Assembly: GCA_907163375.1 (NCBI GenBank)
Contig: CAJQUW010012887.1
Coordinates: 310,001-374,000, forward strand
Reading direction: 5' to 3'
Source of the DNA: Prostheceraeus crozeri
Taxonomy: Eukaryota; Platyhelminthes; Polycladida; Euryleptidae
Length of the DNA: 64,000 nt
A model generated the notes under the pieces. That model was given only the letters and a program-made list of their open reading frames with translations. It had not been told where the DNA came from and did not search any database. A program made the translations under genes and the position numbers. Below, piece after piece: positions 2,829-62,777 of this stretch (its first letter is position 1; each line of letters begins with the position of its first letter).

Positions 2829-3082
2829 TGTGGAATTTGAGATGTAAATTTATTCCCTTAAATAAACTAGGTGTTATGCTTCAGGTACTCTTTTGTGAGT
2901 CAATGAAGTAGTATGCGTTTTTGTTCATACATGTTCGTGTCGTGAATTGTCGGTGTTGCTAAGTTACTGGGTCAGTTCTCCCGCACTGTTATATATATAT
3001 GTGTCTGCGCGCTTGATTTTGAAATATACCGCACATCGCGCTGTCCCGAACGGTTGTTTTTACGTGGTAATAAGATTCAACA
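2829..3082 (+). repeat. 5' LTR of gypsy element
   Basis: A 254-bp repeat beginning TG and ending CA, matching 14030-14281. It carries an AATAAA at 2861-2866 and an AT-repeat TATA-like run near 2989-3000. Confidence 0.93.
2989..3000 (+). promoter_or_regulatory. Probable LTR TATA element
   Basis: A TTATATATATAT run sits about 80 bp before the LTR end, where a promoter is expected. It is also the only length-variable site between the two LTRs (one extra TA here). Confidence 0.4.
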
Positions 3083-3087
3083 TTTAA

Positions 3088-3100
3088 TGGCGACGAGGAT
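3088..3100 (+). other. Primer binding site for tRNA-Ser(GCU)
   Basis: TGGCGACGAGGAT begins 5 nt after the LTR. It is complementary to the 3' end of animal tRNA-Ser(GCU) (acceptor strand CCTCGTCG plus CCA). Serine primers are typical of Mag-like gypsy elements. Confidence 0.75.
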
Positions 3101-3118
3101 AAAGTGAACTGCTGAGCC

Positions 3119-4138
3119 ATGGAGCGAATTATCGTACCGGTGCTGTGTTCGAATCCCAAGTCTGAAGATTGGAACTATTTCTTACGTACTTTCGAGAACT
3201 ACCTCGAAATCGTCGCTGCTACGAAAGCGCAGAAACTTCCGTTACTACTGAATTCCATCGGACGAGACGGACTGGACATATTCGACGGGTTACCTGAGCC
3301 CAAATCAGACTACGACGAAGCAGTTGCTGGATTTAAAGCTCACTTCAAGTGCCGGACGTCAATTCTTCTACGACGAAAACAATTCTTCGAAGCCAAACAA
3401 GGGCAGAGTGAAACTTCTACAGACTACGCGTGTCGACTACGGCGGATAATTAAGGAATGTGATTTCGGTGCTACTCAAGCGGTTCTTCTACGTGACATTT
3501 TCGTTTGTGGTATTTACAATAACTTTCTAGGTGAACGTCTTCTCGCTGAGGACGCCACCGTGCTTACATTTGAAACCGCGTTGTCCAAGGCCGAAGCCTA
3601 CGAACGTGCCCGGCAAGACCGAAAAACAGTGGTGCCGCAATCTGTTTCAAATTTGCGTCTTCCTAATGGTACAAGTCCAGCTTCCCGTGTCCAGAAGTCT
3701 AATCCTGCTCGTTTTCAAAATTCAACCAAGAATATGCCTACGGAACGAGGAAGGTGCTATCGATGCAATTCTACTAATCATTGGGCGAACGACTCATCCT
3801 GTCCTGCGAGGAACGTGTTGTGCAGTGCATGTAATCGTAAGGGACATTTCAAAGCTGCGTGCAAATCTACAATGCTATCCGTTCAACCCAACCCTGCTGA
3901 TCAGTGTAAACGAACGACTGCTGCGGTGTGTGCTTCTAATGATCCCAGTGCTTCTTCTAGTGCTTCCAATTCAAATACCACGTTGCATTCTTACATTAAT
4001 ACTAACGAGTTTTCCATTTTTGCAACTGATAATAGCACGAATGGCATGTCTGATTGTGAACGTCAAGTTTTTTTGAATCATCAAATTGTAAAACGTTTTG
4101 ATAGATACAGGTGCGCAAGTGAATGCCATTCCACGTGA
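3119..4138 (+). CDS. gag: Gag protein of gypsy element
   Basis: A 339-residue Gag polyprotein that would form the cytoplasmic virus-like particle and package element RNA. The first 150 or so residues resemble a capsid-type retrotransposon Gag domain. A basic linker follows, then two zinc knuckles at about residues 213-249: CYRC with later H and C, and CSACNRKGHFKAAC (CX2CX4HX4C). The start is the first ATG, 19 nt after the primer site. The frame overlaps the protease frame at 4098-4138, and moving between them needs a +1 shift, which could be programmed or a mutation. The ORF itself looks intact. Confidence 0.88.
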   Translation: MERIIVPVLCSNPKSEDWNYFLRTFENYLEIVAATKAQKLPLLLNSIGRDGLDIFDGLPEPKSDYDEAVAGFKAHFKCRTSILLRRKQFFEAKQGQSETSTDYACRLRRIIKECDFGATQAVLLRDIFVCGIYNNFLGERLLAEDATVLTFETALSKAEAYERARQDRKTVVPQSVSNLRLPNGTSPASRVQKSNPARFQNSTKNMPTERGRCYRCNSTNHWANDSSCPARNVLCSACNRKGHFKAACKSTMLSVQPNPADQCKRTTAAVCASNDPSASSSASNSNTTLHSYINTNEFSIFATDNSTNGMSDCERQVFLNHQIVKRFDRYRCASECHST

Positions 4139-4574
4139 TTGTATAAGTTTGAATTCGATTTCTCCTACTTCAACAGGTATAAACGCCTGGGGAACTTTTC
4201 CCGTTACTGTTTTGGGTACTACTGAAATTAATGTTTGTTATAAGTCAGTATCAGTGAATGCATTATTTTATGTCGTTGATTTGCCTCCTACTGTTTACCC
4301 TCTATTAAGTTATACTCTTTGTAAACAACTAGGTTTGATTGCTGAGCTTGCTCAGCTGAGTATGGACGAGTTTTCCGAAAATATTGTGGCTAAGTTTTCT
4401 CATGTTTTTGATAGGCAAGGTATTTTGACTACAGGCTACAAGTATTCAGTTTCACTCAAGTCTAATGCTGTTCCTTTCAGTCCACCTGCCAGAAGGTTGG
4501 CTCCCGCGTTACACGCTAAAGTTAAGGCAGAACTAGAGAGGTTAGTAGATACGGTATTATCCGCCGTATCATAG
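4098..4574 (+). CDS. pol: Protease and start of Pol
   Basis: An aspartic protease of the retropepsin type, shown by the active-site motif LIDTGAQVNAIP at the beginning. No ATG is needed because it is expected to be read through from gag by a +1 shift. The frame continues into the connector before reverse transcriptase (ARRLAPALHAKVKAELERLV) and then meets a stop at 4572-4574. The next reverse-transcriptase sequence lies in another frame, next to an imperfect local repeat (GTATTATC / GTATCATA), so a small insertion or duplication has broken this copy. Confidence 0.8.
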   Translation: MIDTGAQVNAIPRDCISLNSISPTSTGINAWGTFPVTVLGTTEINVCYKSVSVNALFYVVDLPPTVYPLLSYTLCKQLGLIAELAQLSMDEFSENIVAKFSHVFDRQGILTTGYKYSVSLKSNAVPFSPPARRLAPALHAKVKAELERLVDTVLSAVS

Positions 4575-4857
4575 AGCCCACTCAGTTTTGTGCGCCTATG
4601 GTTATTGCCCATAAAAAGTCGGGTGAAATTCGAATCTGTACTGATTTTCGTAAACTGAACGAAAACATTTTGCGTGAGCAGTTCCAAATTCCTACGTTTG
4701 AGGAGCTAGCTATGAAAGTTGTTAAACCAAAGTACTTCTCTCAGTTGGATTGTAAAAGTGGGTTTTATCAAATTCCAGTACAAGAGGATTCACAGCATTT
4801 CTTATCTTTCTCTACACCGTTTGGCCGGTATACGTATACGAAGTTGCCGTTCGGTAG
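4575..4857 (+). pseudogene. pol: Reverse transcriptase, N-terminal part (frameshifted)
   Basis: This frame carries the RT fingers and start of the palm: APMVIAHKKSGEIRICTDFR, then KLNENILREQFQIPTFEEL, then FSQLDCKSGFYQIPV and TPFGRYTYTKLPFG. The frame is lost at 4854-4861, where GGTA is present twice in tandem (TTCGGTAGGTATC). One 4-nt copy is surplus and shifts the frame before the catalytic YVDD box. The break is small and recent-looking. Confidence 0.85.
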
Positions 4858-6344
4858 GTATCAGTGTTGCTCCTGAGGTATTTTCGCAATGCATGTATAC
4901 AGTTCTAGAAGGCATTCCTAATGTCCTAATTTATGTTGATGACATTATTGTCTGGGGTTCGTCTCGGGAGGAACATGATCGTACTTTGAATACAGTTTTA
5001 CAGTGCATAGATTCTGCCGGCTTAGCGCTGAACCGTTCTAAATGCAAGTTTGCTGTTCAGTCAATTTCATTTTTAGGACATGTTTGGTCCGTTGATGGCA
5101 TATCTCCGTGCCCTACTAAGGTGGCGGCTATTTCTAAGATGTCATTTCCTGATTGTGCGGCCTCTTTACGTTCATTCTTAGGATTGGCTACTTATGTTGG
5201 CCAGCGTCATGTCCCTCACTTCAGTTCTCTTGTTAATCCGCTGTGGAATCTCTTGAAAGTGAGTGGTAATTCCTCCATAACATGGGATGATAATTCGAAG
5301 ACCGCTTTTCTCTCTGTTAAAAGTGCAATTGCTAATTCTACTTTGTGTTCATTCCTCGATCCAACTAATAAGATTTCTGTTCAAGTTGATGCTAGTGGAG
5401 TCGGTCTAGGGGCGGCTGTTATGCAGGGCGATTCTGTCATTTCCTTTGCCTCACGTGCTCTCACCGATGTCGAAAAAAGATACTCTCAAATAGAGAGGGA
5501 ATTTCTTTCTATTGTTTTTGCACTGAAACGGTTTTCAATGATATTATTGCCTGTTCGATTTGAGTTAAAAACTGATCATGCGCCGTTATTGAGTCTTTTG
5601 CGCAAACCTATTGATAAAATTTCTTGCCGAATGCAAAGATGGATAGTAGCTATTCAACAGTACCAGTTTGATATCAAACACATTCGGGGTCTTGATAACG
5701 TTATTGCTGACGGGTTGTCCAGAAATCCTATAGTTTCTCAAGCAACTCCAGAAGAAACTGCTGAGTATTCTGTTTGCTTCATGTTGAAATCTCTCTCGCT
5801 TGATTTGAGTCGAATTGCTGCTGAATCGGTTAAAGATTCATTGTTATCAGCTGTTGCCACGGCAGTTAATTCTAATTGGCCCGTTAGTTGCAAAAGTTTG
5901 AAACCGTTCTACTCTTTCCGTCAGGAAATCTCCTTGAAACACGGTAGAAATCCTGATGAATTTATCCTTTGTAAAGGGAATGTCGTGATATTGCCGAAGT
6001 CTTTGCAGACTGCTTTTATTGAACTAGCTCACGAAGAGCATGCTGGCGTAAACAAAATCAAAGCTGTCTTGCGTACGCTCGTATATTGGCCAGGTATGTC
6101 TGGTGATATTGAAGATTTTTGTCGTAAGTGTATTTCTTGTACTACATATTCAAACCGCGGAGATAATCCACCTCTGACAGTTGTATCAGAGTCAGTATCA
6201 ATTCCTTGGGAGGTTGTTGCTGTTGATTTGACCGGTCCTTCTGAACTTTTAGAGGGAAATGTACTTTTAACCCTCATTGACCTTCATTCTCGCTATCCTG
6301 AGGTTCATATTCTGAAACAGGGCAACTCACAAAGTATAATACAA
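4858..6344 (+). CDS. pol: Pol: RT catalytic part, RNase H, integrase N-terminal part
   Basis: Continues RT with VAPEVFSQCMY and the catalytic YVDD (4932-4943), then the connection domain and an RNase H (VDASGVGLGAAV, later IEREFLSIVFALKRF and TDHAPLL). Integrase begins with its zinc-binding HHCC region (LAHEEHAGVN, then CRKCISC) and the first catalytic Asp in VDLTGP (near 6225). It is cut at 6344 by the nested transposon. The same frame resumes at 13062, and the inserted length of 6,717 bp (with one duplication) is divisible by three, so the insertion did not shift the frame. Confidence 0.9.
6341..6344. repeat. Target site duplication (left) of nested transposon
   Basis: ACAA just left of the inverted end at 6345 recurs at 13058-13061, just right of the other end. 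The gypsy integrase frame is continuous if one copy and the insert are ignored, which confirms the boundary. Confidence 0.9.
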
Positions 6345-6373
6345 GGGTAAATCCAATTTATTCCACAACATTT
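6345..6373 (+). repeat. Left terminal inverted repeat
   Basis: Twenty-nine bases starting GGGTAAATCC, an exact reverse complement of 13029-13057. Similarity stops abruptly after base 29. Confidence 0.95.
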
Positions 6374-6733
6374 GACGAAAATGTGTCTTCGAATTGTAAA
6401 ATCCATATTTCTGAACCGATTTCAATAGTTTTTTTTTTAATCGAACCGTCAGGATCTCATCAATTATGCCGTGGTTTTTAAAAAGTCACATAGCCAAAAG
6501 CTTCTTCAGAAGTTCCCGTTTTTTGCCAAAAAATACTCAAAAAAGCATGTCCAAAATTGCAGTACTCTAACTTCAACACAAATTTTCGATTAGTTGCATT
6601 GAAATGCACCCACTAATATTTATATCATCTGAAAGAAGAAGATCAGCTCTTTAAGACAGTCTAATTTTGAGTATCGTATTTCATATTGATCATTGATTTC
6701 TCAGTGGGTTTCCATTGTCCAATGAAAAAAATG

Positions 6734-6769
6734 TCCTCTGACCGAGACGTTTTCTGTCCTCTGACCGAG
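6734..6769 (+). promoter_or_regulatory. Subterminal 13-mer pair (plus orientation)
   Basis: TCCTCTGACCGAG at 6734-6746 and 6757-6769, 23 bp apart. Likely a transposase-binding repeat, by analogy with subterminal repeats of other DNA transposons (inference). Confidence 0.6.
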
Positions 6770-7100
6770 GTACCTTTTCTCGAAGAATATTGATTTTTCC
6801 ATCAAACTTTTTGGACCAAACGAATCCTCTAGTGTGCTAGTTTATAAATCCGTAAAGAAAATTCAACATGGTGCCGCAACAAGTGAGCAATATTGATTTG
6901 AAAATATTTTTATCCGTTTTTTCGACCAGAGGATTTGAATATTCCTAAAAAGTTCATAGTAATGCTGAAACCAGAAATTTTGTCAGAAATCGATGAAATT
7001 TCACAGCATAGGAGGGATCCATGCTCTTAACATCTATGCAAAAGAATTTTTTCATTTATCGTAATTAACCTTTTCAAAATCTCCAAAAACCACGAAAATG

Positions 7101-7190
7101 TCCTCTGACCGAGACCATAAAAAATCTCGGTCAGAGGACAGCGTTGAAATTGAAGATCTCGGTCAGAGGACAAGGGTCTCGGTCAGAGGA
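7101..7190. promoter_or_regulatory. Subterminal 13-mer cluster, mixed orientation
   Basis: One plus copy (7101-7113) followed by three inverted copies (7126-7138, 7158-7170, 7178-7190). The first two form a short palindrome. The inverted copies mirror the cluster at the right end. Confidence 0.6.
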
Positions 7191-8840
7191 CATTACATAT
7201 GCATTGCATTTAGGTCACTTCGTTTTGCGCATGCAAATATTCACTCCGAGTTCCCAGGCTCATGAACCCTAATGCATAAACCAGAAACTCTCGTAATCAG
7301 TGACTCACACATCAGACACAATAGCACATTGTTTCGATCGCACCAAGCGTAAGACGCATTTCTCTCGACGTCAGTCAGCGAATGGCAGTGAATAGCTCAT
7401 TCTCATCGTTTCATCATCTCGCGTTGCTGCTCGTAGGTGATCAGCGCTCTCAATGTTTTTGAATTCCTGGTTCTGATCAGTTTATCGCTTTTCCTTCGGT
7501 TGCTTCAACTCGTCACAACGTTTTTGAATTCCTGGTTCTGATCATTTTATCGCCTTTCCGTCGGTTGGGTCAACTCGTCTCAGTGATTTTGAATTCATAT
7601 TTTGATCATTTTATCGCTTTTCCGTGTATCATGCCACTTGGTGATCATCTGTATGTGTTTATAACACATTTGCAATATGGAAACCGCATATTAAGGTGAG
7701 GAAAGAAGCGTCATTTGCACTAATTTAAACTACAGTGTAGAAAGAAACAATCATTTTGAAGTGCATTTATCCTGAATTATAGCTTATGTCTGGTACTCGA
7801 CGCATCATATAGATACTCGTATGCTGCTTATCCAAATCAAAAAATGTTGTGATCCAAACTATCTCACTTTGTTGGTATCTTGATAATGCAATTAAATGCA
7901 AATATGTGTATCATATTGTTTTCACTGGTATTCATGTATCATTAATTTCCTTTTATAGGCATATTTTGTGCTCTTTTGAGATTGACATCCATTCTGTCGG
8001 CGCCAGAATATGGTCAATCGGTGGATGTTTATAGCTGTTATGACAATTATAATCTAGTATACATTTGTAGCTATTGATCATGAATAATATTGAGTGAATG
8101 AATGGCCTACCACACATGAAATGCACGTAGTGTACCGTTTTACTACGTGCACAATTTCGGTGTGAAAATGATGCTGTCATCTTGTACATGCTAAGGGCCT
8201 GTCATATAATAATCAATGTATTTAATTGTAGATTTTATTAAAGGTGATTGTATTTAGACAGTCTAGGCAGGTTAGATGGGCCTACTTAGGCCACATGACA
8301 TACATGTAGTTTAACATAGCATAACAATGCAACATCAAATAGCTACACCCTATGGCCTGTAAACTTAATTCAACTAATAATATGCATGCCCACCGTATAA
8401 CTTCGCTCTTTGTTTGAAATGTCTTCATACATGCATGTATTTCTCTTTTAAATGCTTCATGTTTCTCTGTATGTAGGCAATTGCTAATACAGTTATTACT
8501 ATTCCAATTTGCTAGCTGCTGAAGGCTACTACTCGCAGTGAAGTTATCATGAATTTCCAAAATTCGCGTTTTATTATTGGGCTTGTTATTTATAGTTTCG
8601 TACATGTAACCAACAACACATTGCCGGTAGTAGGCTAATTGTCATGCATGTCATTTCATGATCTCGGATTCTGAAGTATTTTAAACGCACCCCTCAGTAA
8701 ATTTGAATTAATATATGAATGCAATAAGAAAAGTTATAACCCAAATGAAACAAAACCTGTAAAGTGTTGAATTACATGCGATATCGCTTCAGTGTCACCT
8801 ATGCAAACTTAAATAATCACAGTTTACAAATGTAGGCTAT

Positions 8841-9335
8841 ATGGAAAGCATGAATAAATCTCAGTCTCACTATATAGTGCAACTAGCTTCTTCACATTGT
8901 CCAGCACAAGTGATGCCCGATATTAAAAAGAAGAAAAAGCTCACGGCTGAACAGCGTGAACGGAAAAGGCAGTATGATAGAGACTATCGGGAACGTAAGA
9001 AAAAAAGAGAGGGTGAAGCCTTCCTTGAGAGGCGCAGGATAATTTCAAGAGAATCATACAAGAAAAAGAGAGATAGTGAAGATGATAGAGCTAAGCGCTT
9101 GCGAAGAAGAAATTGGAGTGCTCAGAAGCGCAACATGCGGACAACTAAAAGCGACAACTCTTTAATAGATGTGTCAGCTAGTTCTGTGCAAACCATTGAG
9201 TCAGATGAGAAAAGTTTTAAGGCACAAAAACGAGAGACACGGAAAAAGAAAGATAAAATTAAAAAGCTGCGAAAAGAAGTAAAATCATTGAAAAGGGAAA
9301 ATTGGAGATTAACAAAACGCTTGCAACGACGCAAG
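8841..9335 (+). CDS. Transposase exon 1: basic, bZIP-like N-terminus
   Basis: 165 codons, ending in phase 0 before GTAAGA. From about residue 25 it is extremely rich in Lys and Arg (PDIKKKKKLTAEQRERKRQY, then RDYRERKKKR). It ends in a heptad-like coiled coil (KKLRKEVKSLKREN, then WRLTKRLQRRK). The order basic stretch then leucine-containing helix suggests DNA binding with dimerisation. Confidence 0.75.
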
Positions 9336-12300
9336 GTAAGAGTTCTATTTATGCGAGTGTGTCACGATTATTCAATAACATCATTTTTATATTGCCACCA
9401 TAGAAATGCTCCAATCTTGATGTGAACTCAAACAATTCGTCACCAATAAAAGCAGCCACGCAAACCTTGCAGTCTGAGACTGAAACTTCCAAGATAGTTT
9501 TGACGCATCATCGCATTATGAGTGCTATTAAAAAAAGAAACGCGAGACGCATTAAGATGTGTGACCTAATTAAAAAGGTAAATATCCTGGAAAATTGAAG
9601 TTTTGATTTTTTTAATTAAATATTACGAAGTTTAATTCTTCTATAGCTGAAATCAAAATACCGCGGGATGCAGTGTCATTTCAAATCCCTGGCAAAAATC
9701 GATCCGAGAATGAGTGACAAAATGACAATCGAGCGCAAAGCCACAGTTCAGAGAAATGAAGTCGTCGATTTCTTTTTACGCGACGACAACAGCCGAGCAA
9801 CTGCTGGAAAGAAGGAAACACGTACCTCTAAAGGAGTAAAACAACAAATACGGTACTTGAACTTTACAATGGACCAGCTCTATCATAAATTTTTGTCTGA
9901 GCGTGGACCGGATGCTGAACCCATCGGTAAATTATCATGCTATGCAATATTATAAAATACTTCTGTAACAGTATTATGTTTTTGTAGGACGCAGTACATT
10001 CTATACGTTGAAGCCATTCTATGCAATGCGACCAAAACTGAAAGATCGTGGAGTCTGTCTGTGTATAAAATGTACCAACTTTCAGGTCAGTGAACAAAAC
10101 TCGACTTTCACATAAGTCATTTATCTTTTTAAATTAGACCTGCTTCATACTTGCAACTATATGTGTTGTAGTATGTTTGGAGTTTGGCTTCCATTTTTAT
10201 ACATGAGAGCAAATTGTGGAATACAAATAATTCGAAGTAATAAACTTCGATAATAATAAATTTCGATATATTTATGTAGTCTTAATTATAGAAAAAATCG
10301 CTATCACGTATATAGAGCCATGAACAACAATATTTAGAATAAAATAAAATTTGAGTCTGTTCTGTCACTTGCTATAACACGAACGTCACACATTTTATAG
10401 CTTTTGGTGGACACACTGTACATGAGAGGTATTTTAGCCAGTCGGGAGAAAGAAACGTTAGCGTCAGAGATGGTGTGTGATATCACTAGCGAAAACTGCG
10501 CCTATCGGAAGTGTAATAACTGCAACGGTCGCAACAGTATTCATGCAAACAATGTAACCGCCGACATTGTCAAATTCTGTCGCTGGGAGCGATCGGATGA
10601 TGGCGATCATATTACAACAAAATTGGTTGAGGTACATTTTTTAAAATTAAGTTGCTTTGGAATATTAATAAACATGTATTCCTTTCTTTTAGAAACTTGA
10701 AAGTGTAGCGGAATTGACGAGAATTTATTTACATGAATCGGAGCAATTTTCAGCTCATACTTTTCGGGTAAAGCAAATTTATAAAGCCATCACGCATTTG
10801 ATGAATACTCTTGAGACAGGATTGATGGTCTTGCACATCGATTTTTCCGAAAATTATACTTTAAAGTATGGAACAGAAGTTCAATCTGCTCACTTCGGGC
10901 ACTCATCTCAAATTGTTATCCATCAAGGAATGGCTTATGGGGATCACTTTAAACAATCGTTCTCCACAATTTCGGACGATTATCGAAAAACAAGCGAAAG
11001 TGTGGCAGCTCATCTCCTCAGCATTCTTGAGGAATTGAAAAATATCTACAAATTTTCGAAGGTAGGCTATAAACAGAGCTTCGTGGCACGAAATTTTGAG
11101 AAGACCTATGCTGAAGTCCTGGTAGACCTCTGGGCACATGCCTATTATTGTGTATAATGACTGACAGGTTAGGCCCATTGTGAATTGTGACCTAAATTGG
11201 TTTCGCATTTCATTTCATTGTATAGGCATTCATGTAATTAATAGATTACATTATTGGCCATTTGCACCAGGTTGGGGCGTACATGTGCATGCATAAACAA
11301 TCTCTTAAACATTATAGATATTTTATTATACGAACATAATTATAAGCTTCGAAATACTTTCTGCAATTAGTCTTGTGTGCAATTACAACTTGCCATATTG
11401 TAAATTAAAATTAATTTAATTATGAGGATGGCAAATTTCGGTTTCAGCTTGTCATTATTTCCGATTCCCCGACTTCTCAGTATCGAAACAGAACGACAAT
11501 GTTCCTTCTTCGTCACATTTGTCAAGTGCAACAGATAGAAGATTTTGAATGGATTTTTTTCGGAGGCGGGACATGGGAAAGGAGCCCCAGATGGGATCGG
11601 GGCATCCATAAAGCGTGCAGCTGATCAACATGTCTCGACCGGGAATCATGTAAAAAACAGCAAAGATATCGTGCAGCTGCTTGAATCAAACGATTCAAAA
11701 ATTTTGGTGAAAGAAGTAAGTAAAGTAAAGGGTTTTGTATAGAGACACTGTGATAACAGCTTCGAGTCAGCGAGAAGTTTTCTAACATGTTTTAATGTAG
11801 ACTTTGATCCTTACGTCTTATGTTTGTGACTGCGTTGTATTATACATTTGGAAAAATGAATACTATGGGTCATCAAATTGTAACTTATGCTTAAAGTTTT
11901 TCTATACGGATCTAAAAACAATTAAATAAAATTCACAGAAAATCTATTTTATCGTTTCCTTGCAGGTGACTACGGAAGAAATTGACTCCATGAGGCTCCA
12001 AATTCCAACTTTGGTGCCGAAGATTCCCGGAATTATGAAAACGCATAACGTTTTCGGTACATGTAATGGACCAATGTACTACAGACGCATGCCATGTGGC
12101 ACATGCATTCGTACCCTAGATATGACATGTCAGTGTTTTGATCCAAAAGTATGGACTTTAGACGATGCTCCTTATGATATTCCTACTAGCGATGTAGCTA
12201 GCACACCATGTAGGCCTATCACTCAATCAAGCACAGGCCATTGGGTGGCCGTAGCATTGGCCGCGGCATCTGGTCGCCGGTCCAATCGACGTATCTACAT

Positions 12301-12550
12301 CGGACAAATTATGTCTGTTGATTCTGGTCCTACATGTGCTCTTCTTGCGATTCGGTATGTCAGTGTACCATTGGACACGAAAAGATCTTTCTACACTCTC
12401 CCCACTGTAGACGATTTGGACACCGGTGTCCCGGAGACAGACTGTCATCTTCTTCCTATGCCTGTTTCCACAATGCCTGGAGCTACTTCAGGCTATGAGT
12501 TTGAAAAGAGCAGTCTGATAAATGCTGTCAGCTTTTTTGATCAACGATGA
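8841..12550 (+). CDS. DDE-type transposase, eight exons
   Basis: Exons 8841-9335, 9404-9577, 9647-9926, 9988-10085, 10401-10631, 10693-11061, 11448-11715 and 11966-12550. Every junction has GT...AG ends and the phases agree, giving about 830 residues. The N-terminus is very basic with a coiled coil, the middle has Cys pairs, and the core has Asp in HIDFSENY (GAT 10840-10842), Asp in ISDSPTSQYRN (GAT 11463-11465) and Glu in SEAGHGKGAPDG (GAG 11563-11565). These look like an RNase H-fold DDE triad with 32 residues between the last two (inference). It would cut and rejoin the element's ends in the nucleus. The start is the first ATG at 8841; ATG 8913 is an alternative. A surplus T in exon 7 breaks the frame. 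Confidence 0.82.
9404..9577 (+). CDS. Transposase exon 2
   Basis: 58 codons between CCATAG and GTAAAT. Polar and basic, with no recognised domain (contains HHRIMSAIKKRNARRIKMCD). Found from splice sites and matching phase, not from a long ORF. Confidence 0.65.
9647..10085 (+). CDS. Transposase exons 3 and 4
   Basis: Exon 3 (9647-9926, phase 1 end) and exon 4 (9988-10085), with a 61-nt intron. The first contains QRNEVVDFFLRDDNSR and YLNFTMDQLYHKFL. The second ends DRGVCLCIKCTNFQ, the first of several Cys pairs that may bind zinc ahead of the catalytic core. Confidence 0.72.
10401..10631 (+). CDS. Transposase exon 5: Cys-rich segment
   Basis: 77 codons, phase 0 at both ends. Contains EMVCDITSENCAYRKCNNC, a Cys cluster that could complete a zinc site with the CLCIKC pair of exon 4. 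Confidence 0.72.
10693..11061 (+). CDS. Transposase exon 6: first catalytic Asp
   Basis: 123 codons between TTTTAG and GTAGGC. Carries VLHIDFSENYTLKYGTEVQ followed by SAHFGHSSQIVIHQG, the signature I associate with an otherwise unnamed animal protein family. The Asp in HIDFSENY is the best candidate for the first carboxylate of the DDE triad. Confidence 0.8.
11448..11715 (+). CDS. Transposase exon 7: second Asp and Glu, frame broken by one T
   Basis: Begins LVIISDSPTSQYRN after TTTCAG and ends LVKE before GTAAGT. The two halves are in different frames: the change falls in a run of seven T at 11554-11560, directly before SEAGHGKGAPDG. The exon is 268 nt, one more than a phase-0 exon should be. 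It is either a mutation, an assembly error in a homopolymer, or a frameshift site. Confidence 0.8.
11966..12550 (+). CDS. Transposase exon 8: C-terminus
   Basis: 195 codons including the stop, after CCTTGCAG. Starts VTTEEIDSMRLQIP. A Cys cluster (RMPCGTCIRTLDMTCQCFD) probably binds zinc. The remainder, up to SFFDQR, has no recognised domain. Confidence 0.78.
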   Translation: MTTEEIDSMRLQIPTLVPKIPGIMKTHNVFGTCNGPMYYRRMPCGTCIRTLDMTCQCFDPKVWTLDDAPYDIPTSDVASTPCRPITQSSTGHWVAVALAAASGRRSNRRIYIGQIMSVDSGPTCALLAIRYVSVPLDTKRSFYTLPTVDDLDTGVPETDCHLLPMPVSTMPGATSGYEFEKSSLINAVSFFDQR

Positions 12551-13028
12551 GTGAATGCGCGCCCACTGTAGGCACTATTCCAATTTCGTTGGCAATTTCG
12601 TTTTGGATATTCTATGAGTTCTGGAAATACAGTGGTTATTTTCAAATCACCAGTTTTCATTGAAATTATAATTGGAGCAGATAGCACATTGACAAACCAA
12701 CAATCTACATGTAATGTAGCCTTATACCGCTCAAATTGTACAAAAATCATATAAGTATAGGTCTATTAGGTAGCAAGTCCTCTGACCGAGATCAATTTGT
12801 CCTCTGACCGAGATCATGTGTCCTCTGACCGAGATCAATTTGTCCTCTGACCGAGATCATGTGTCCTCTGACCGAGATGCAGAAAATATAGCTTTTTTAA
12901 AAATGCTAGATTTCTATGGAAAGTCTTTATTTGGTGTGGTCGCCATTAGGATTTTCGTGCTCAGCGTAAAAAAATGAGTATATATGCAAACTTTCACGGA
13001 AATCTGAAACCCAAAGTTGAAAAGACAG
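12551..13028. other. Right non-coding part of the DNA transposon
   Basis: Contains the transcript 3' region and the five-copy subterminal array at 12778-12876, then about 150 bp of AT-rich DNA leading to the right inverted end. Confidence 0.6.
12778..12876 (+). promoter_or_regulatory. Five phased subterminal 13-mers
   Basis: TCCTCTGACCGAG at 12778, 12800, 12821, 12843 and 12864, spaced 22, 21, 22 and 21 bp, which is two helical turns. The spacers alternate between AT-rich ATCAATTTG and ATCATGTG. Such phasing places all sites on one DNA face, as expected for cooperative protein binding (inference). Confidence 0.7.
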
Positions 13029-13057
13029 AAATGTTGTGGAATAAATTGGATTTACCC
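13029..13057 (-). repeat. Right terminal inverted repeat
   Basis: Exact reverse complement of 6345-6373, ending in GGATTTACCC. Confidence 0.95.
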
Positions 13058-13838
13058 ACAAGCCCTTACATACACTTTTAGTAAATTCGGGATGCCAAAG
13101 AAAATATTGTCAGATAATGGGACTCCATTTGTTTCTGCTGAATTTTCTTCATTCTTATTGAATTGTGGAGTTAAGCATGTTCGTGCTTCAAACTTTAATC
13201 CGAGATGTAATGGCACTATTGAAAGATTCCATTCTACGCTAAAGAGTCGATTGAAGCGTATTATTCATGAACATCGAGTCCCTCTGTGGAAGGCTATTCA
13301 AGCGATTTTGTATGATCTTCGGGCATCTCCGCATGATATAAATGGCGAGACGCCGTTCTTTCGACTCTTCGGTCGTTCCATGCCTACTAAGCTTTCACGT
13401 GCTCTTCTTGTTAAAAATGAATCTCCCACTTGCAGAAAACGAAAAGTTGACGTTGAGTATGATAATCGTTGGTCAATTAGTCGACCATATGATCCAGGTA
13501 CTAAAGTTCGTGTGAGAAAGGGGGATGGGCAACCATTCGATTTCACGGGTACTGTGAAAAGAAAAGTATCGGATTATACTTATGAAATTGACTTTGGAAA
13601 TTACGTTAGGAATTATAACCAACGCCATATAAAACATATGTATGACGATAGTACTGATGATGGGTTACTTTATTTTGATGCGGACGAGGCCTACGATTCT
13701 GTTGAAGCACCTATGGTTGAGGATTCAGTACCTACTTTTTCTCCTTCCCCTCGTAGTGCGTCTAATGATATACCAGCACGTGTTCAGAGAGGTAGACTTC
13801 GTAAACCTATTGATCGCTATGGTGTTGTACCGTACTAA
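13058..13838 (+). CDS. pol: Integrase C-terminal part of gypsy Pol
   Basis: The interrupted integrase resumes after the ACAA duplication (13058-13061). It contains the second catalytic Asp in SDNGTPF (GAT 13113-13115) and the Glu in CNGTIERFH, completing a DD35E-type core. A GPY/F-like C-terminal module follows (PYDPGTKVRVRKGDGQPFDF, then GTVKRKVSDYTYEIDFG). It ends at TAA 13836-13838, about 180 bp before the purine tract. Confidence 0.9.
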
Positions 13839-14015
13839 TAATACAGTAATCTGTTTTATCGAGTGTTAATGGCATGATTTTATTGAGTGTTCTACTTCTT
13901 TGTGCGTAAGTTCTTTCCCTTGAACTATCGGACTCATTACATCTTGGCTTTTATCGTTTTCTTGTAATTTGTTAAAATGCTTTGTTGCTGGTACGAGTAA
14001 ATTTGTAATTTTTCT

Positions 14016-14029
14016 AAGAAAAGGGTGAA
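14016..14029 (+). other. Polypurine tract of gypsy element
   Basis: AAGAAAAGGGTGAA abuts the right LTR, the expected primer for plus-strand DNA synthesis. Confidence 0.65.
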
Positions 14030-14281
14030 TGTGGAATTTGAAATGTAAATTTATTCCCTTAAATAAACTAGGTGTTATGCTTCAGGTACTCTTTTGTGAG
14101 TCAATTAAGTAGTATGCGTTTTTGTTCATACATGTTCGTGTCGTGAATTGTCGGTGTTGCTAAGTTACTGGGTCAGTTCTCCCGCACTGTTATATATATG
14201 TGTCTGCGCGCTTGATTTTGAAATATACCGCACATCGCGCTGTCCCGAACGGTTGTTTTTACGTGGTAATAAGATTCAACA
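14030..14281 (+). repeat. 3' LTR of gypsy element
   Basis: 252 bp, TG...CA, nearly identical to 2829-3082 (two substitutions, one TA fewer). Flanked on the right by GTATC at 14282-14286, the target duplication. Confidence 0.93.
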
Positions 14282-18029: not shown

Positions 18030-18255
18030 CACATCCTTTGTATGGCAATTTGATCTATCGTGTATTTAATCTCATTATTGTTAATTGCATTCACGACATG
18101 GTTTAAGATGCTTTGGTGGACAATCGATCCCCGCTACTTGACTTAATGTCGGCGGTCACAATTGTGACGTGTTATTTATTCATTGATTATTATTGCCTTG
18201 ACAACTGATGTGTGGTGGTGAGGGTTTGATCCTGCCATTTGACACAGTCGCATAA

Positions 18256-18329
18256 GTGGCGCGTAGCTCAGTTGGTAAGAGCACAGGTCTAGTTAACCTT
18301 GGTCGTAGGTTCGAATCCTACCAGCCGCA
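18256..18329 (+). tRNA. tRNA-like gene, copy 1
   Basis: A box TAGCTCAGTTGG and B box GGTTCGAATCC are exact Pol III promoter matches, and TTTT follows the 3' end closely. The position-based anticodon is AGT (Thr). This copy starts GTGGCGC and has an extra acceptor-stem mismatch. It is probably a tRNA pseudogene or SINE head rather than a working tRNA. Confidence 0.5.
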
Positions 18330-18553
18330 CATCTTTTGCATGGCAATTTGATCTATTGTTTATTTAATCTCATTGTTGTTAATTGCATTCTCGACATGAT
18401 TTAAGATGCTTTGGTGGACAATCGATCCCCGCTACTTGCCTTGATGTCGGCGGTCACAATTGTGACGTGTTATTTATTCATTGATTATTATTGCCTTGAC
18501 AACTGATGTGTGGTGGTGAGGGTTTGATCCTGCCAATTGACACAGTCGCATAA

Positions 18554-18627
18554 GTGGCTCGTAGCTCAGTTGGTTAGAGCACAGGTCTAGTTAACCTTGG
18601 TCGTAGGTTCGAATCCTACCAGCCGCA
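18554..18627 (+). tRNA. tRNA-like gene, copy 2
   Basis: Acceptor GTGGCT pairs with AGCCGC (one G-U), but position 7-66 is C-C, there is one surplus base before the D stem, and the outermost anticodon-stem pair is C-T. The T arm (GTAGG-TTCGAAT-CCTAC) and D arm (GCTC/GAGC) are perfect. Loop CTAGTTA gives anticodon AGT at 18589-18591. Confidence 0.5.
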
Positions 18628-18851
18628 CATCTTTTGCATGGCAATCTGATCTATCGTGTATTTAATCTCATTGTTGTTAATTGCATTCACGACATGGTTT
18701 AAGATGCTTTGGTGGACAATCGATCCCCGCTACTTGCCTTAATGTCGGCGGTCACAATTGTGACGTGTTATTTATTCATTGATTATTATTGCCTTGACAA
18801 CTGATGTGTGGTGGTGAGGGTTTGATCCTGCCAATTGACACAGTCGCATAA

Positions 18852-18925
18852 GTGGCTCGTAGCTCAGCTGGTTAGAGCACAGGTCTAGTTAACCTTGGTC
18901 GTAGGTTCGAATCCTACCAGCCGCA
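18852..18925 (+). tRNA. tRNA-like gene, copy 3
   Basis: Same as copy 2 except AGCTCAGCTGG in the D loop, which still fits the A-box consensus. A TTTT terminator follows within 10 nt. Confidence 0.5.
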
Positions 18926-19162
18926 CATCTTTTGCATGGCAATCTGATCTATCGTGTATTTAATTTCATTGTTGTTAATTGCATTCACGACATGGCATAA
19001 AGTACTGACTGTCTAAAATACTAATATCAAAGTTAAAAACAGCACCAGAAAATCGAAAATTAAAGCAGAGGAAGAAAATAAAGAAACATAGACTTTAGCA
19101 ATTGATAGTCACATAGTAACCAATACAGCAGCTGATCGAGCTGGAAACATGTAGCGCTTCTA

Positions 19163-49300: not shown

Positions 49301-52300
49301 TTCATTCGTCATACGAGTCTCACCTGGTCTGGAGTCGCTGCATCATGTGTCATTGCATCTCCCTCGGGGCAGATGAGGTCTGCAACATTTCTATCCACTT
49401 CTTCACCTACTTCTTCGTCAGATTCGCAATGATCTTCATGAGAGAGTGACAGAGATTCACTTCTCAACAAGTCGCTCACATCATTGACACGTTGAGGAGA
49501 ATTGGAGGTCGTCCTCTTCAAAGGCAAATGACGGACATTCTTGAACTTGACGCAGTTCATCGATCCTCCAAGATCGACGACTAGAAAGCAGTTCTGAGGA
49601 TGAGATAAGAATAATTTGACATTGGAGCAGAGAGATCCTGTCTTGACCCATTCAATCATGCTAATTATTGCTGAAATTTGCTTGAACAAATTTGCTTTAA
49701 TTATGGGTTCAGCAGACGTCAGACATTCAATCAGTCAATTTATTTTATGCATTACCCTAGTCATCATATTGCATCAAAATAAAGGACGTAAAATAATTAT
49801 CAGATTCTTCTCGGGAAAACTTTATCATAGCCGTTATCGTGTCTTATATTCATGAAATCCGTTTAAATGTCTGAAGAAGATACGTCAATCACACCCGGTC
49901 ACTTCGAATACTTTATTTACAGCATGAAATGCATTTTGTACACTGATAGCGTTCGCGAGGCACATAAGTGTGCAGAAATGTATTCATGAATACTTAGGAA
50001 AGCATGTTGTTGATTTCTATGGTAATAAATGGAGATATCTGATAAGAATTGAGTGATGAGCAGGTTAAATGAAATATATCATCAGCTGACTGCGTAGAAA
50101 TGAGAATATCCAATCTTTGGGGCTTGCATGAGCTATGGAACACATGCATCCGAACCTGTCATATATAGCTACTGCAGCGTCTCGATATCAGTCTCCTTGC
50201 TTTAGCTTAGCTACAGTTGTATGTTGAATAACAGGAATGATGCTCGTACAGAAGGGACTGTATTTTCTATAACGTTGAACAAATCGCTTCATAAGTAAGC
50301 CTGAATTTTCGAGAGAATTCAAGGATCAACTCTTCCAGACAACCAAACTGCTCTTGACGAGTCATGAAGATGAAGGAGACTTATTGAGTCTCCAAAGACG
50401 GTAGTTGAGTTCGACAGTGGAGCTTAGAGCAACTCAGTGAAACTCATCGCTCATCCGTTGACAAGAGGCCTTCTGTACATTCTATACAAATCCAATCCAA
50501 CCAGCACTGAGTTCAGGCAATCCACCGACAAAAGAAGTCAAACCTGGTAATTAGCCAGGAAGTATAGCAGTCCTGCTTCTATTCCGACCTCTCGCACCAG
50601 CTTATGTAGGCCTATAGTGTAATTTTTTTGACTTTGAGTCTTACTGGTAGAAAGAAACAATACAAAAACTCCTATATCAGCGCGTATGACTTAAACTGCG
50701 TTAATTTAATCAAATTCATGAACTGAATGACTCAATACATGAAACGCAATAATAAGACCACAAATGCGACACAGTAAGAACTCCCGGTGTTGATCTCCTT
50801 GGCATGAGAGTGTAGAGCTTCTTACCTTGGGCACATTTTCAGCTGCAGTTCCAAGATACATGCCATCGAGGAAGAATGAAAGCGTCGCCTCGCTGCTGTA
50901 ATGAACTCCGACACGCAGAGGTTCCACACTGGCCAGTTCCAGCCTGGGCGCATAGTTAGGTTTGACAATCCGTCCTGACGTCACCACATCTCCTCCAGTG
51001 ACCAGCCAATGAGCTTTCTCTAACTGACAAGCGAATGTGGGCAACATGTCTGCACCCACCGCCTCTTTATCCACCACCCAATCCACCAAACCAACACCAA
51101 GGAGGCCGCCAACTTCACCGCAAGGCATGTCAGAGCGCGGCTCAGTGCTCGATACCTCCAATTCCAGCAACTCATCGGGACGGATCGGGTCTGCAGAGAA
51201 GACAAGCGCCCCGGTGGGCGAATGTCGTCGAGTGGCAGTCTGTCGGGAGTCGTCCAATCGAACTGAGTCGCCGTGACATTGATTAAACTTGCAGATATTA
51301 GCAGCTCGGGAACCTGCAAACGAGGAATGAAAGCCTGATGCACCGACTGTGTCCACAATTTATTCTTCATTTTGTGTGAGTGAAAGATATCTCTTCTATG
51401 CAAACTACAGGGAGGAAACACACGGGATCACAAAGGCAACTTTTCCTGTGTAAGCTGCTGAGTTAAAAAGGTCATAGAAGTCTATAAACAAGTTGTGATT
51501 AGCCAGAGACTACCAAGATATCGATATAGTCCCTGGATTACCTCATTCATAGATTTTGCGGCATAGACATCAACTTCATAATGAACAATAGACATCTATA
51601 AATCACAAAATGAAAAGCTACATTCTTTCGAGAGGAAATAAACGCTTCCTCTCTTAGTTATCTGTCTATCCTCGCTGCGCTCGGGCTGTACAACATAGCT
51701 GTGGGAGGAAAAGTTGATATTTCCTCTCTCAAGAAAATAGCTGTGATTACTGTAACGACACTTCTAGTGATCCTCGCCGCTGGAAAAATGGCGTGTGACC
51801 TACCTCTCATTAAGTCAGACATGTTGGTATCTATCGATGGTCCGGACCGTAGAATCAAGCGATTGATATCTGCCTCTAAACTTTCACGACGACTGGCCGA
51901 CGTGTCTCGTGTTTCCATGTTGTGGAACGGTGTGATGACTCGATCCAAGCATGTCAATGAAGACACGATCGCTGAAGCTTGAGTGGTGGATAATGACGAC
52001 GTCTGCATCACCATCGAGCTGGCGTCCTGATGAGGTCGGTCAGTACCCTCCATGCTGGTCGACATGATGACCACGGGATTGGACGCAGACGTCTCATCTT
52101 CAGCAGGGATCACGGTGGTCCCAGCAGGCACTATCAGACCTGAGCGTGACGTGAGTGATACCTGAGGACGGAAGATTATAGAATGAATGAATCACATGGA
52201 AAGAGAAGTGTCTCTCACCTGTGCACATTGGCCGTACAAGTCGATAAGGGCGTAGACCCCTTCAGGAACATCCCGACAGGCGGATCCCATGTCTTTACCA

Positions 52301-55300
52301 TCGAGGAAGAAATGTAGAGAACCATCTGATCGACGGAGCAGTCCAACTCGGGATCCAAGCACCAACCGGTCCAAATCAAATGTATACTGGCTTTGAATGG
52401 TTTTTCCATCTCTCATCACGGAGTTCCCGCTGCAATGAAGAGATCAGCATGTGATCGTGCTCACCTGTCCTTGATTCATTATCAGTTAGGACTTTCGTTA
52501 ACTATCGTGAATTCCCCCCCCCATGGACAGACTTTTAAGGATATTTGAATGATAGTCTTGATGTTAAAGATCAGATACGAGTTACATTGCGTGTGGAGCG
52601 TCATTTTGACAGATGTGATGCTCTGGACTGTATTTGATGTGATGTGCAGCTAAATTCGATTCATCACGCTCATAAAGACGGAAACTACACTGTGCTGGTC
52701 GTCATCACATCATTAGAAGTACGGCTTTAAGTTGAATTTACATTTCATCCGTACGGCATGCCGCATAACGCAAATGTCGGACAGTACATGGATTGCAGTT
52801 GTCCGGTGAGATACACAAATGTTGTCCCACATAGTCATTGATTGCTGTTCTAACAGAATCAGATTGTTTATATAAGTGCAAGCAAATTATATAGTCCCTT
52901 TCCTATAATGCAAACTGATTCGAAAAGATGGCACATGAAGGAACTTAATAAGTGGGCGTAAAGAAATTTTTAATGCCTTACAGAGATAGGAAAAATAGTC
53001 GTGTGTCACATGTGGATTGCTGTGAATTCCTTCAAAATACTCCGATCGCCACCATTCCTTCAGATTCGAAGAATTCAGATCATTGCGCAAACGTTTTCTC
53101 GATAATGTTGGGCTCTCCGATCATTTTAAAAAAAGTTAGCAGGCGCACGAAAAAACGTTCACAAACTTCTCTGTAGAACTTGACATCGTCTGCGTCTCTT
53201 TGCTGTGTGATCCGGCTGATAACAGTCACTGAAACTTTGCACAATTTGGCGTGTTTAATGTTGAATTGGCTGCTCATTGTTCGATTTCTATGGTATTTAG
53301 TCAGCAGATTGTGCCATTTCATTAACGTTACATGTTCCAATGCTTCCTTTCTAGTCAAACAGGAGAAAAGACTGTCTAATTCTATGACTGTTCCTGTGGC
53401 ATTGTCATACGTTCATATTGCTGTAAATAAGAAAGTGGGCCGTGTTGCCGTGTACTGCTTGTAGCGATCTGATGACACCTCTGAACATACCACACAGCAT
53501 AAGGGATAAGGGTTGCCTGCCAGAAAAGGACCATGAAGTGCCCTTCAATTGCTTTTAGCAAACATCCCATGACAGGCCGACATCCCCTCCCCCGAAACTG
53601 AGCATCTTCATCCTCCCACGCTAGGTTGACTGCGTCATCAATGAGATGCGTGAGTGAAATGCCCTGGCTGGCATATGACGTCAGCTCACCTCAGCACCCA
53701 CGTTTCATGCTCCAAATCCGTCATCGTACTCGGGAACCGCAGTCTCTCCGGCGGGATCAGCGTCACGCCTGCCTCTAAGCTGCCACTCCATCTGTCCACC
53801 ATTCTCTCCACGCGCACTTCAAACAGTTCATCATTGAGAAGAGGGCGCGTGGATACGAGCATGGCATCGTTGAATTCGGACTGCGCATGAGGCCGGTAGG
53901 CGATGCTGCCATCGGCGGCCACACACGCATTCCGACCATGCGAATGATGAAATGCCAACGGCGGCGACATGCACGCCACGTGAGCGTCCAGAGCTGTGGC
54001 AGCCGCGGCAGGACTGAGAATACTGACCTGTAAGAGGAAGGGGTTGTTGCAAGTTCGCATGTAATGGCTACAGACCAGTAGGATCACTCACTTGCGCCGC
54101 TCGTCCATATAAGTCAACGACACCATAGACGACAGGCGGAACGTTCCTGGCTGCACATCCAAGATCCACACCGTTGACATAGAAGTGGAGATTTCCATTG
54201 GGACGTCGTTGGACGCCCACCAAGTCCCACACTTGCAGACGGTCTGGTTCATCATCCTCCAGCGAGCCTCCGACGGCACCTTCCTCCTCATCTCCATCTT
54301 CATCTAAGTCACTCAATTCCCCGTCTTCATCGTCTCCTGTAATTCAAGAGAATTCGTACAATTTGTGCAATGAATTGAGGAAAATTTCGGACAATCAGTG
54401 GGCAATTAATTCTGTAAAGCATTTACACACAAATTATTATCTACTTACAATGAATATTCAGTGGTACTGCGTTTACGTGAAGTTATCTTAAGTTGTCGAA
54501 AAGTTAGTTGACAAAATCCATTCAATACGTGCTTCAAAATTGCATTGATACCGTTGAGCTACATCTTTGAGTTCGACAGACAAACTTCTCAATGATTTTT
54601 ATGACATGAGAAATGAAAATCAAACCAACCAAAACTTAAATAATTTAATTTAGATCTTTACAGGGTTGAGCGCGAATATTCGAATCCGCCTGAACGAATC
54701 CGGACTAAGGATCATTCATTGCACGAATCTTAGATTCTATAAATGAATCAAAATAATCATCTTTCTCTACTCGATAGACTTTCATTTCATCTGAAGAACG
54801 TTCGGATCATCTCATTTCATGTGATCCCCTGACTATCCCAAAAACAATGTCTATTGGATGTCCTCTACTCGCGAAATGAATTGCCTGAATGATTGTGTGA
54901 AGTCACAGCACTTTTCACACAATACTTGCATCGGTAGGCTATGTATGAAATCGGTGTTGAAATTTGTATTTACCGGCGTGAAACGTCGGGACATTGTTTT
55001 TAATACGACTGATCTTAGCAATAAACTTGTTTTCACCAAGAAGACAACTTGTTTTTTCCCGATAACGGCAACCACTACGAATACTGAGTTATGTTTTGAG
55101 GTGTCCTATGCGGTGGCCATAAAAGATGTATAGAAAATGAAGTCGACGGTCTTCATTAACGCAATACATATACATCACACGATCATAGATATAGGACACT
55201 TAACACTATGGGAAAACCTGTATTTACGTTATAATATAAAGTAACGTGTCAGTGACCAACCAGTATTTCAAGGAATACTTGCCTTAATGTCGGCGGTCAC

Positions 55301-61105: not shown

Positions 61106-61416
61106 GTCAATTTAATTCAATTCTTTGTGTCTTGTATCATCCATACTGGGGAAATGTTAATTCTCATGATATAGTGATAGACTCTCTTCAATCGCTGGTA
61201 GACAACCTTTCGTCCAAACATGTTATCTTAACAGGAGATGTGAATGACCTGCGTCATAAATTGTGTGACTTTTTTGTTTTGAACAACATGAAACAACTTG
61301 TCCAATTTCCTACTAGAGGAAATGTTTTGGATATTTTTGCCTCAAGCCAGCCCCTCAGATTTGAACTGTCCTCCTCTCCCTCATTGGTAGATCTGATTAT
61401 AAAGGTATCTTTGTGA
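61106..61416 (+). pseudogene. LINE endonuclease fragment
   Basis: VYHPYWGNVNSHDIVIDSLQ, then VILTGDVNDLRHKL (the GDFND box) and GNVLDIFASSQP. The SDH box would fall near 61394, where the frame changes and the His is Tyr (SDYKGIFVK), so catalysis would be lost. Confidence 0.75.
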
Positions 61417-62777
61417 AAACTGTCGCTAACAAACCTGTTACTGTCACTAAGGTCAAAGTTAGGTCTTTCTCTCCCGCCTCCTTTGCTCAGTGCTATAGTG
61501 TCCTTCAGTCAATTGATTGGAACGCCTGTTGTCTTGATTTTGATGATATCAATAAAGCTATTGACGCCTTACAGTTTCTTCTTCTACAATTCTATCATTT
61601 ATTCTTTCCAGAAAAAACAGTCAGGATGAGAAGTTCTGATCCGACTTGGCTTACTCCATCTCTTAAAGCCATTTCAGATGCTAGAGATAGAGCTCTCTCC
61701 CGTGGCAATTATCCCAAGTACCTGTGTCTTAGAGAAAAATTTCTTTCAGAAGTGAAAAAATCCAAAATGAATCAATTCCGTAGAATGAAGTCCTCTTCCC
61801 CTGCTGATAGCTGGAAAGATATTAATGCGCAGATTAAGAACCGGCATGGATCTTCTAATATCGACTATAACAAGGCCGTTGAACTCAATGAAGATTTTCA
61901 ATCCTTCTTCTCTGATCCTGACGTCGACTCCTTTCTTGAGGATGGGCCTTCTACTCCTACCCACATCCCCCTAATTCCCGAGACTAAAATTTCTGAATTG
62001 ATAAGATCGTCCAAGTCGAATTCAGTCGGACCTGATGGTATTCCAGGATTATTTTACAGGAAATTCCGCAATGTCTTGGTTGCGCCCTTGACCGTTCTAT
62101 TTAACAGATGCCTTCAATCTGGTACCTTTCCTACTACCTGGCAATTGGCTAATGTCCTCCCTCTTCCGAAAGGCAATGGTGAATTCAGACCAATTTTGAT
62201 CTTGCCTTTCCTCAGTAAAGTGCTTGAGCGCCTGATTCGTGATCACCTGCTTTTGCCGTCTATTTGTTCTTTTGACTCACGGCAGTTTGGGTTCATTCCT
62301 AATTCGTTTGGGGGATGCACTAACGCTCTTCTCAGTCTTCGTTTGACTATTCTGCAACACCTCAGCGCCAAGTCCTCCAACTCTTGGAAAATTCTCGCAG
62401 TAGACTTCAGAAAGGCCTTCGATTCGTTAAGTCACCTATCTGTTCTGAACACCCTTGTGACTGTTTTTCAATGCAATCCTTATATTGTTTCTATGATTCA
62501 GTCCTTTTTGAAAGATCGTTTTCAGAGGGTCGCTACCAATGGTGTGCAAGCTTCGTGGAAAGCTGTTTCCAGCAGAGTCCCTCAAGGGTCTATCTTGGGG
62601 CCTCTGTTGTTTGTCATGTACATTAATGATCTTCCTCATCTGACAAATACCAAAATCATAGCTTACGCGGACGATAAATCTCTCGTTCACCTGTCAGAAT
62701 CGTCTTCCTCTTCTGTCTGTCAAGATGACATTGATATTTTTGTCGAGTGGGCTCAGAATAAGAATCCGCATCAATGA
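61394..62777 (+). pseudogene. LINE reverse transcriptase
   Basis: Open for about 460 codons. Contains SVGPDGIPGLFYRKF, PLTVLFNRCLQSGTFPTTWQ, FRPILILPFLSKVLERLI, LAVDFRKAFDSLSH, RVPQGSILGPLLFVMYINDL and the catalytic YADD at 62664-62675. Copies element RNA at the nicked target in active relatives. The frame ends at 62777 because of a small indel just before INEAKTK-like sequence. Confidence 0.87.

Follow-up and report, generated by a model that had tools for sequence, protein, structure and literature searches.

Among described DNA transposons, the Sola superfamily offers the closest comparison for the element analyzed here. In the published accounts, Sola elements have a DDD transposase, 4-bp target site duplications, terminal inverted repeats (TIRs) of 11-1124 bp and a size of mostly 2-9 kb (PMC10741241), and the Sola2 elements of dictyostelids have 4-bp duplications described as AT-rich and a transposase of 888 aa (PMC3627910). 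We examined a 64,000-nt stretch of the genome of the polyclad flatworm Prostheceraeus crozeri (contig CAJQUW010012887.1; hereafter the window), from an assembly of 2.05 Gb in 14,165 contigs, and in particular a 6,713-bp element at positions 6345-13057. We read this element as a cut-and-paste DNA transposon with an RNase H-like DDD transposase (probability about 0.85), because it combines fixed ends, a fixed 4-bp stagger, derivatives with internal deletions that keep the ends and the subterminal repeats, and an enzyme predicted to be of the RNase H type.

Results

The element is bounded by perfect TIRs of 29 bp (6345..6373 on the plus strand and 13029..13057 on the minus strand; 29/29 pairing, 100% complementary), its termini read GGG...CCC, and the tetranucleotide ACAA stands on both sides (6341..6344 and 13058..13061), recognized as the target site duplication by flank comparison and a frame-join test. 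The transposon splits a host Ty3/gypsy element on the plus strand (2829..14281), with long terminal repeats (LTRs) at 2829-3082 and 14030-14281 and GTATC flanks. The gypsy piece to the left of the transposon carries the integrase zinc domain (Pfam H2C2, E 2.4e-14), and the piece to the right carries the final part of rve (E 7.9e-6; 26.5 bits, below the Pfam cut-off of 32.6). When 45 nt of flank from each side are joined, the integrase frame is kept with a single ACAA and lost with both copies. Thus, an earlier note on this DNA, made from the sequence alone, was right about the perfect inverted ends, the ACAA duplication and the integrase frame that continues across the insertion point. Its statement that the gypsy LTRs are over 99% alike is accurate by substitutions (99.2%; two substitutions and one 2-nt gap over 254 columns) and inaccurate with the gap counted (98.4%). 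Because the transposon interrupts the integrase region of a gypsy element that is itself young, it arrived later than the gypsy insertion.

The genome was searched with the left 156 bp of the element; 40 loci were scored among 1059 candidates, and all 40 were read (the window copy, a first set of 20 stretches and 19 of a second set of 20), so that the copy number is a lower bound. Both ends were present in 30 rows, 26 of them with an exact 4-bp duplication, and because two rows (L021 and L022) represent a single insertion, these reduce to 29 distinct insertions, 25 with the exact duplication. The four both-end loci that do not show it are L019, L025, L038 and L041; a matching 4-bp word offset by a few bases was found in L019 and L025. 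Only the left end lay within the fetched stretch at 10 of the 20 loci of the first set. The multiple copies with 4-bp duplications anticipated by the earlier note were thus found, and the ends recur both with and without the gene, rather than occurring once and never with it, the outcome that the note had held against its own reading. No palindromic target preference was evident, each duplication position being complementary in 5-10 of the 26 rows. As a separate observation, L021 and L022 have an identical insertion and identical flanks on two contigs, with internal lengths of 5,809 and 6,138 bp, which suggests haplotypes retained in the assembly.

Short non-autonomous copies of 1,077-1,390 bp occupy 19 of the loci, 17 of them with a 4-bp duplication. 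The nine that were compared with the window element (L029-L037) are 87-91% identical to its left 0.8-0.95 kb and ~92% identical to its right 213 bp. In addition, L024 is a deletion derivative of 1,076 bp. The subterminal regions carry repeats similar to TGTCCTCTGACCGAGA (up to two substitutions), with a left cluster at 6732..7192, three on the plus strand and three on the minus strand, and a right tandem array of five copies on the plus strand at 12776..12878. The length of the right array differs between copies and is far greater in L020 and L026, where it reaches the end of the fetched stretch. The 11 occurrences of the motif in the window element are the only ones in the window, and 5-9 are present in each of the 19 short copies; the repeats may bind the transposase. 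A further tandem repeat inside the element, upstream of exon 1 (7451..7625), consists of 2.7 copies of a 65-bp unit.

Among five full-length copies, namely, that of the window, L010, L011, L012 and L015, any two are separated by 12-20 substitutions over ~6.7 kb (0.18-0.30%) plus 5-10 indels, and divergence rises to 1.0-1.6%, with many indels, in L019 and L025. This comparison took in seven of 12 aligned copies. The family is very young and multi-copy, and it may still be active, as the earlier note had proposed: five copies lie within 0.30% of each other, and one copy is open. Together with the perfect ends and the duplication, the near-identical copies support the description of the element as a complete, recent DNA transposon with TIRs.

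The gene is predicted to consist of eight plus-strand exons, and all seven introns are GT-AG in the window copy. Exon 1 (8841..9335) encodes a basic, helix-forming N terminus and is followed by exon 2 (9404..9577), exon 3 (9647..9926), with the conserved stretch DDNSRxTAGKKET, exon 4 (9988..10085), in which a conserved Cys cluster begins, and exon 5 (10401..10631), with the remainder of this cluster. Exon 6 (10693..11061) contains HIDFSENY with the predicted first catalytic Asp (D476, in the numbering of L012), exon 7 (11448..11715) contains ISDSPTSQYRN (D555) and HGKGAPDG (D597), and exon 8 (11966..12550) encodes the conserved C-terminal part and the stop codon. In L012, the sole open copy among the 12 aligned, all eight exons form one open frame of 832 aa. 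The window copy has a one-base frame change in a T run of exon 7, ahead of the HGKG box, so that ISDSPTSQYRN is read in one frame and SEAGHGKG in another; hence, the eight GT-AG exons reported previously stand, and the claim of matching phases fails within exon 7. None of the 12 other retrieved copies that span this stretch agrees with the window copy at that point, and a splice variant or a programmed shift was therefore rejected; the break is possibly an assembly error.

One further copy, L027, located near the end of contig C4328, carries dense single-base insertions relative to the other copies, resembling unpolished long-read sequence, and some of the frame breaks in other copies may therefore be assembly errors as well. 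L027 was also tried, as a diverged copy, in a test for selection. Contrary to what purifying selection would give, conservation seemed lower in its exons than in its introns, and the test was dropped because the differences are these dense insertions near a contig end.

These breaks bear on whether the family recently became extinct, that is, whether a single burst left no copy mobile now, the open frame of L012 being inactive on other grounds. The coding part is broken in 11 of the 12 aligned copies, and the copies diverged by 1.0-1.6% are rich in indels, as would be expected under extinction; however, five copies differ by no more than 0.30%, and several breaks are single-base indels, which could be assembly errors like the noise in L027. 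We regard recent extinction as rather unlikely and consider the element a good candidate active transposon from a little-charted lineage, with an ordinary mechanism.

Database models gave little purchase on the protein. Seven pieces drawn from six of the window exons all failed to reach a Pfam cut-off, the L012 protein went unmatched in Pfam at E 0.01, and an alignment of 30 members matched no Pfam transposase family, single members matching OTU and three weak families; NCBIfam gave 0 families over the same 30 members. Five transposase motif strings did not occur in the literature text searched. Likewise, no Pfam match to a Fanzor gene was found in L012 (no search aimed at Fanzor was made). 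A first protein search scored 7,991 candidates and found 200 homologues among them, and the 120 listed are, where they have names, called hypothetical, uncharacterized or unnamed, except for P0108 (methionine aminopeptidase) and P0115 (SWIM-type), whose names reflect side domains. Among viral contigs, 19 stretches fit a pattern and tblastn yielded 0 relatives; among prokaryote genomes, there were 46 pattern matches and 0 relatives. As a side observation, P0001, the closest homologue among those listed, has an OTU-type protease domain at its C terminus, and P0014 is annotated likewise; the OTU domain was probably captured by this transposase family.

Residues D476, D555, H591, K593, D597 and G600 of L012 (D400, D481, H517, K519, D523 and G526 of homologue P0004) are invariant in all 90 aligned homologue rows, and E588 (E514 of P0004), the Glu of SEAG, is kept in 86 of the 90. 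We consider the catalytic triad more likely to be DDD than DDE, with the Asp of HGKGAPDG (D597) as its third residue, preferred over E588 because of this difference in conservation. The first two Asp of the DDE triad proposed in the earlier note, in HIDFSENY and ISDSPTSQYRN, are retained in this assignment, and the proposed Glu gives way to an Asp. In a wider set of 28 rows, the second Asp was unaligned in three and the third in four, all of them fragments or unaligned ends. Furthermore, Cys 340, 342, 375, 382 and 387 of L012 are invariant across the 30-row alignment.

AlphaFold models of two homologues show the RNase H order of elements, resembling retroviral integrases and Mos1, with a modeled RNase H-like core and clustered carboxylates. 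The transposase is thus predicted to be of the RNase H type, as the earlier note had supposed, and the models do not point to another fold. A profile search of PDB proteins detected no sequence relation to retroviral integrases, IstA or Mos1/mariner (best hit E 0.2), and BFVD returned two unnamed matches (E <= 0.001; rmsd 19-24 Å).

Other known superfamilies with 4-bp duplications, namely, Ginger, piggyBac and Chapaev, have the duplication length in their favor and nothing else; we considered them already disfavored and very improbable. The target and duplication of piggyBac and Kolobok elements are TTAA, which occurs at none of the 25 duplications here, and the gypsy-like integrase of Ginger (Pfam rve, E <= 0.01) was matched by 0 of the 30 members. 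Chapaev (CMC) ends are described as an invariable 5'-CAC ... GTG-3' (PMC4079192), as opposed to GGG...CCC here.

In a core tree of 28 rows, the window family falls within a clade of eight (100/99) that also includes P0001, P0002, P0003, P0121, P0122, P0123 and P0170; a smaller, 30-row tree recovered this grouping for the four members then known, with a long-branch warning. Further homologues occur in insects, molluscs and fish. A second group, reached via P0194, comprises proteins from Hydra, a crinoid, a sea cucumber, a sea spider and insects. Profile comparison shows it to be homologous to the window family (576 columns, probability 100, E 1.1e-79), with the shared motifs DFAENY, SDG..QYKN and HGK..CDGIGG, at 15% identity over aligned columns. 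No informative Pfam model matched this second group, apart from a stray match in one of 26 members. The transposase family is widespread and poorly named.

Elsewhere in the window, a 22.5-kb satellite array (25111-47642) consists of ~245 copies of a 92-bp unit that are 96% alike. A 298-bp unit is repeated 3.2 times in tandem at 18030-18995, with three tRNA-like genes (Rfam), and a single similar tRNA-bearing block lies at 55276-55500. A 454-codon open reading frame (ORF) on the plus strand (61413-62774) is matched by the reverse transcriptase model RVT_1 (E 1.5e-23) and belongs to another retroelement, and a 216-codon ORF on the minus strand (50706-51356), matched by Neuralized (E 4.9e-13), may be an exon of a host gene.

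Discussion

Taken as a cut-and-paste transposon, the element would move by means of a transposase that recognizes the 29-bp ends, with probable help from the subterminal TGTCCTCTGACCGAGA repeats, cuts the element out and links it at both ends to the target across a 4-bp stagger. Repair of the gaps would then create the 4-bp duplication. The same enzyme could serve both its own copies and, in trans, the short non-autonomous copies with the same ends.

The element supplies the exact anatomy for a transposase family, including ends, duplication, exons, subterminal repeats and short non-autonomous partners, and with it as a reference, many animal-genome entries now annotated as "uncharacterized protein" could be identified as transposases. 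Moreover, open, near-identical native transposon copies are rare starting points for activity tests in animals.

The predicted RNase H-like core and the positions of its carboxylates are shared with retroviral integrases, IstA and Mos1/mariner. Unlike in these enzymes, the third carboxylate here is an Asp, separated from the second by 41 residues, and a Cys cluster lies upstream of the core. The 4-bp duplication also differs from that of Tc1/mariner, which makes TA (PMC10741241).

Plain Foldseek support for the predicted fold is weak. A or T fills 71 of 104 duplication positions, only about two-thirds (26 rows, one insertion entered twice), and the element may differ in this from dictyostelid Sola2, whose duplications are described as AT-rich (PMC3627910). 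A superfamily of its own, unnamed, with the same mechanism and distinct from Sola1-3, would range from Hydra to fish and be characterized by the DDD triad, the 4-bp duplication, the Cys cluster and the lack of a database model; the window element would then be complete, datable and still jumping, in a deep clade whose other members in this analysis come only from environmental contigs. The lack of Pfam and NCBIfam models in 30 members (single side domains aside), the uninformative names of all listed homologues but P0108 and P0115, and the motif strings that found no match in the literature are in line with such a superfamily. We nevertheless consider it unlikely, given that the duplication, the DDD triad, the TIR length and the element size all fit Sola as described (PMC10741241). 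Assignment to Sola, and within it to the Sola2 group, is somewhat favored by match to the published description, and the element is filed as Sola-like, not as proven Sola2. The label "unassigned superfamily" in the earlier note was nonetheless too strong, because Sola, as published, is described with this pairing of a DDD triad and 4-bp duplications. The likeness to that description (PMC10741241) comprises the 4-bp duplication, exact at 25 of 29 distinct insertions, a putative DDD triad, with three Asp present in 90 of 90 homologues and placed by the predicted fold, and TIRs of 29 bp in an element of 6,713 bp, both inside the published ranges, and the transposase of 832 aa compares with 888 aa in dictyostelid Sola2 (PMC3627910).
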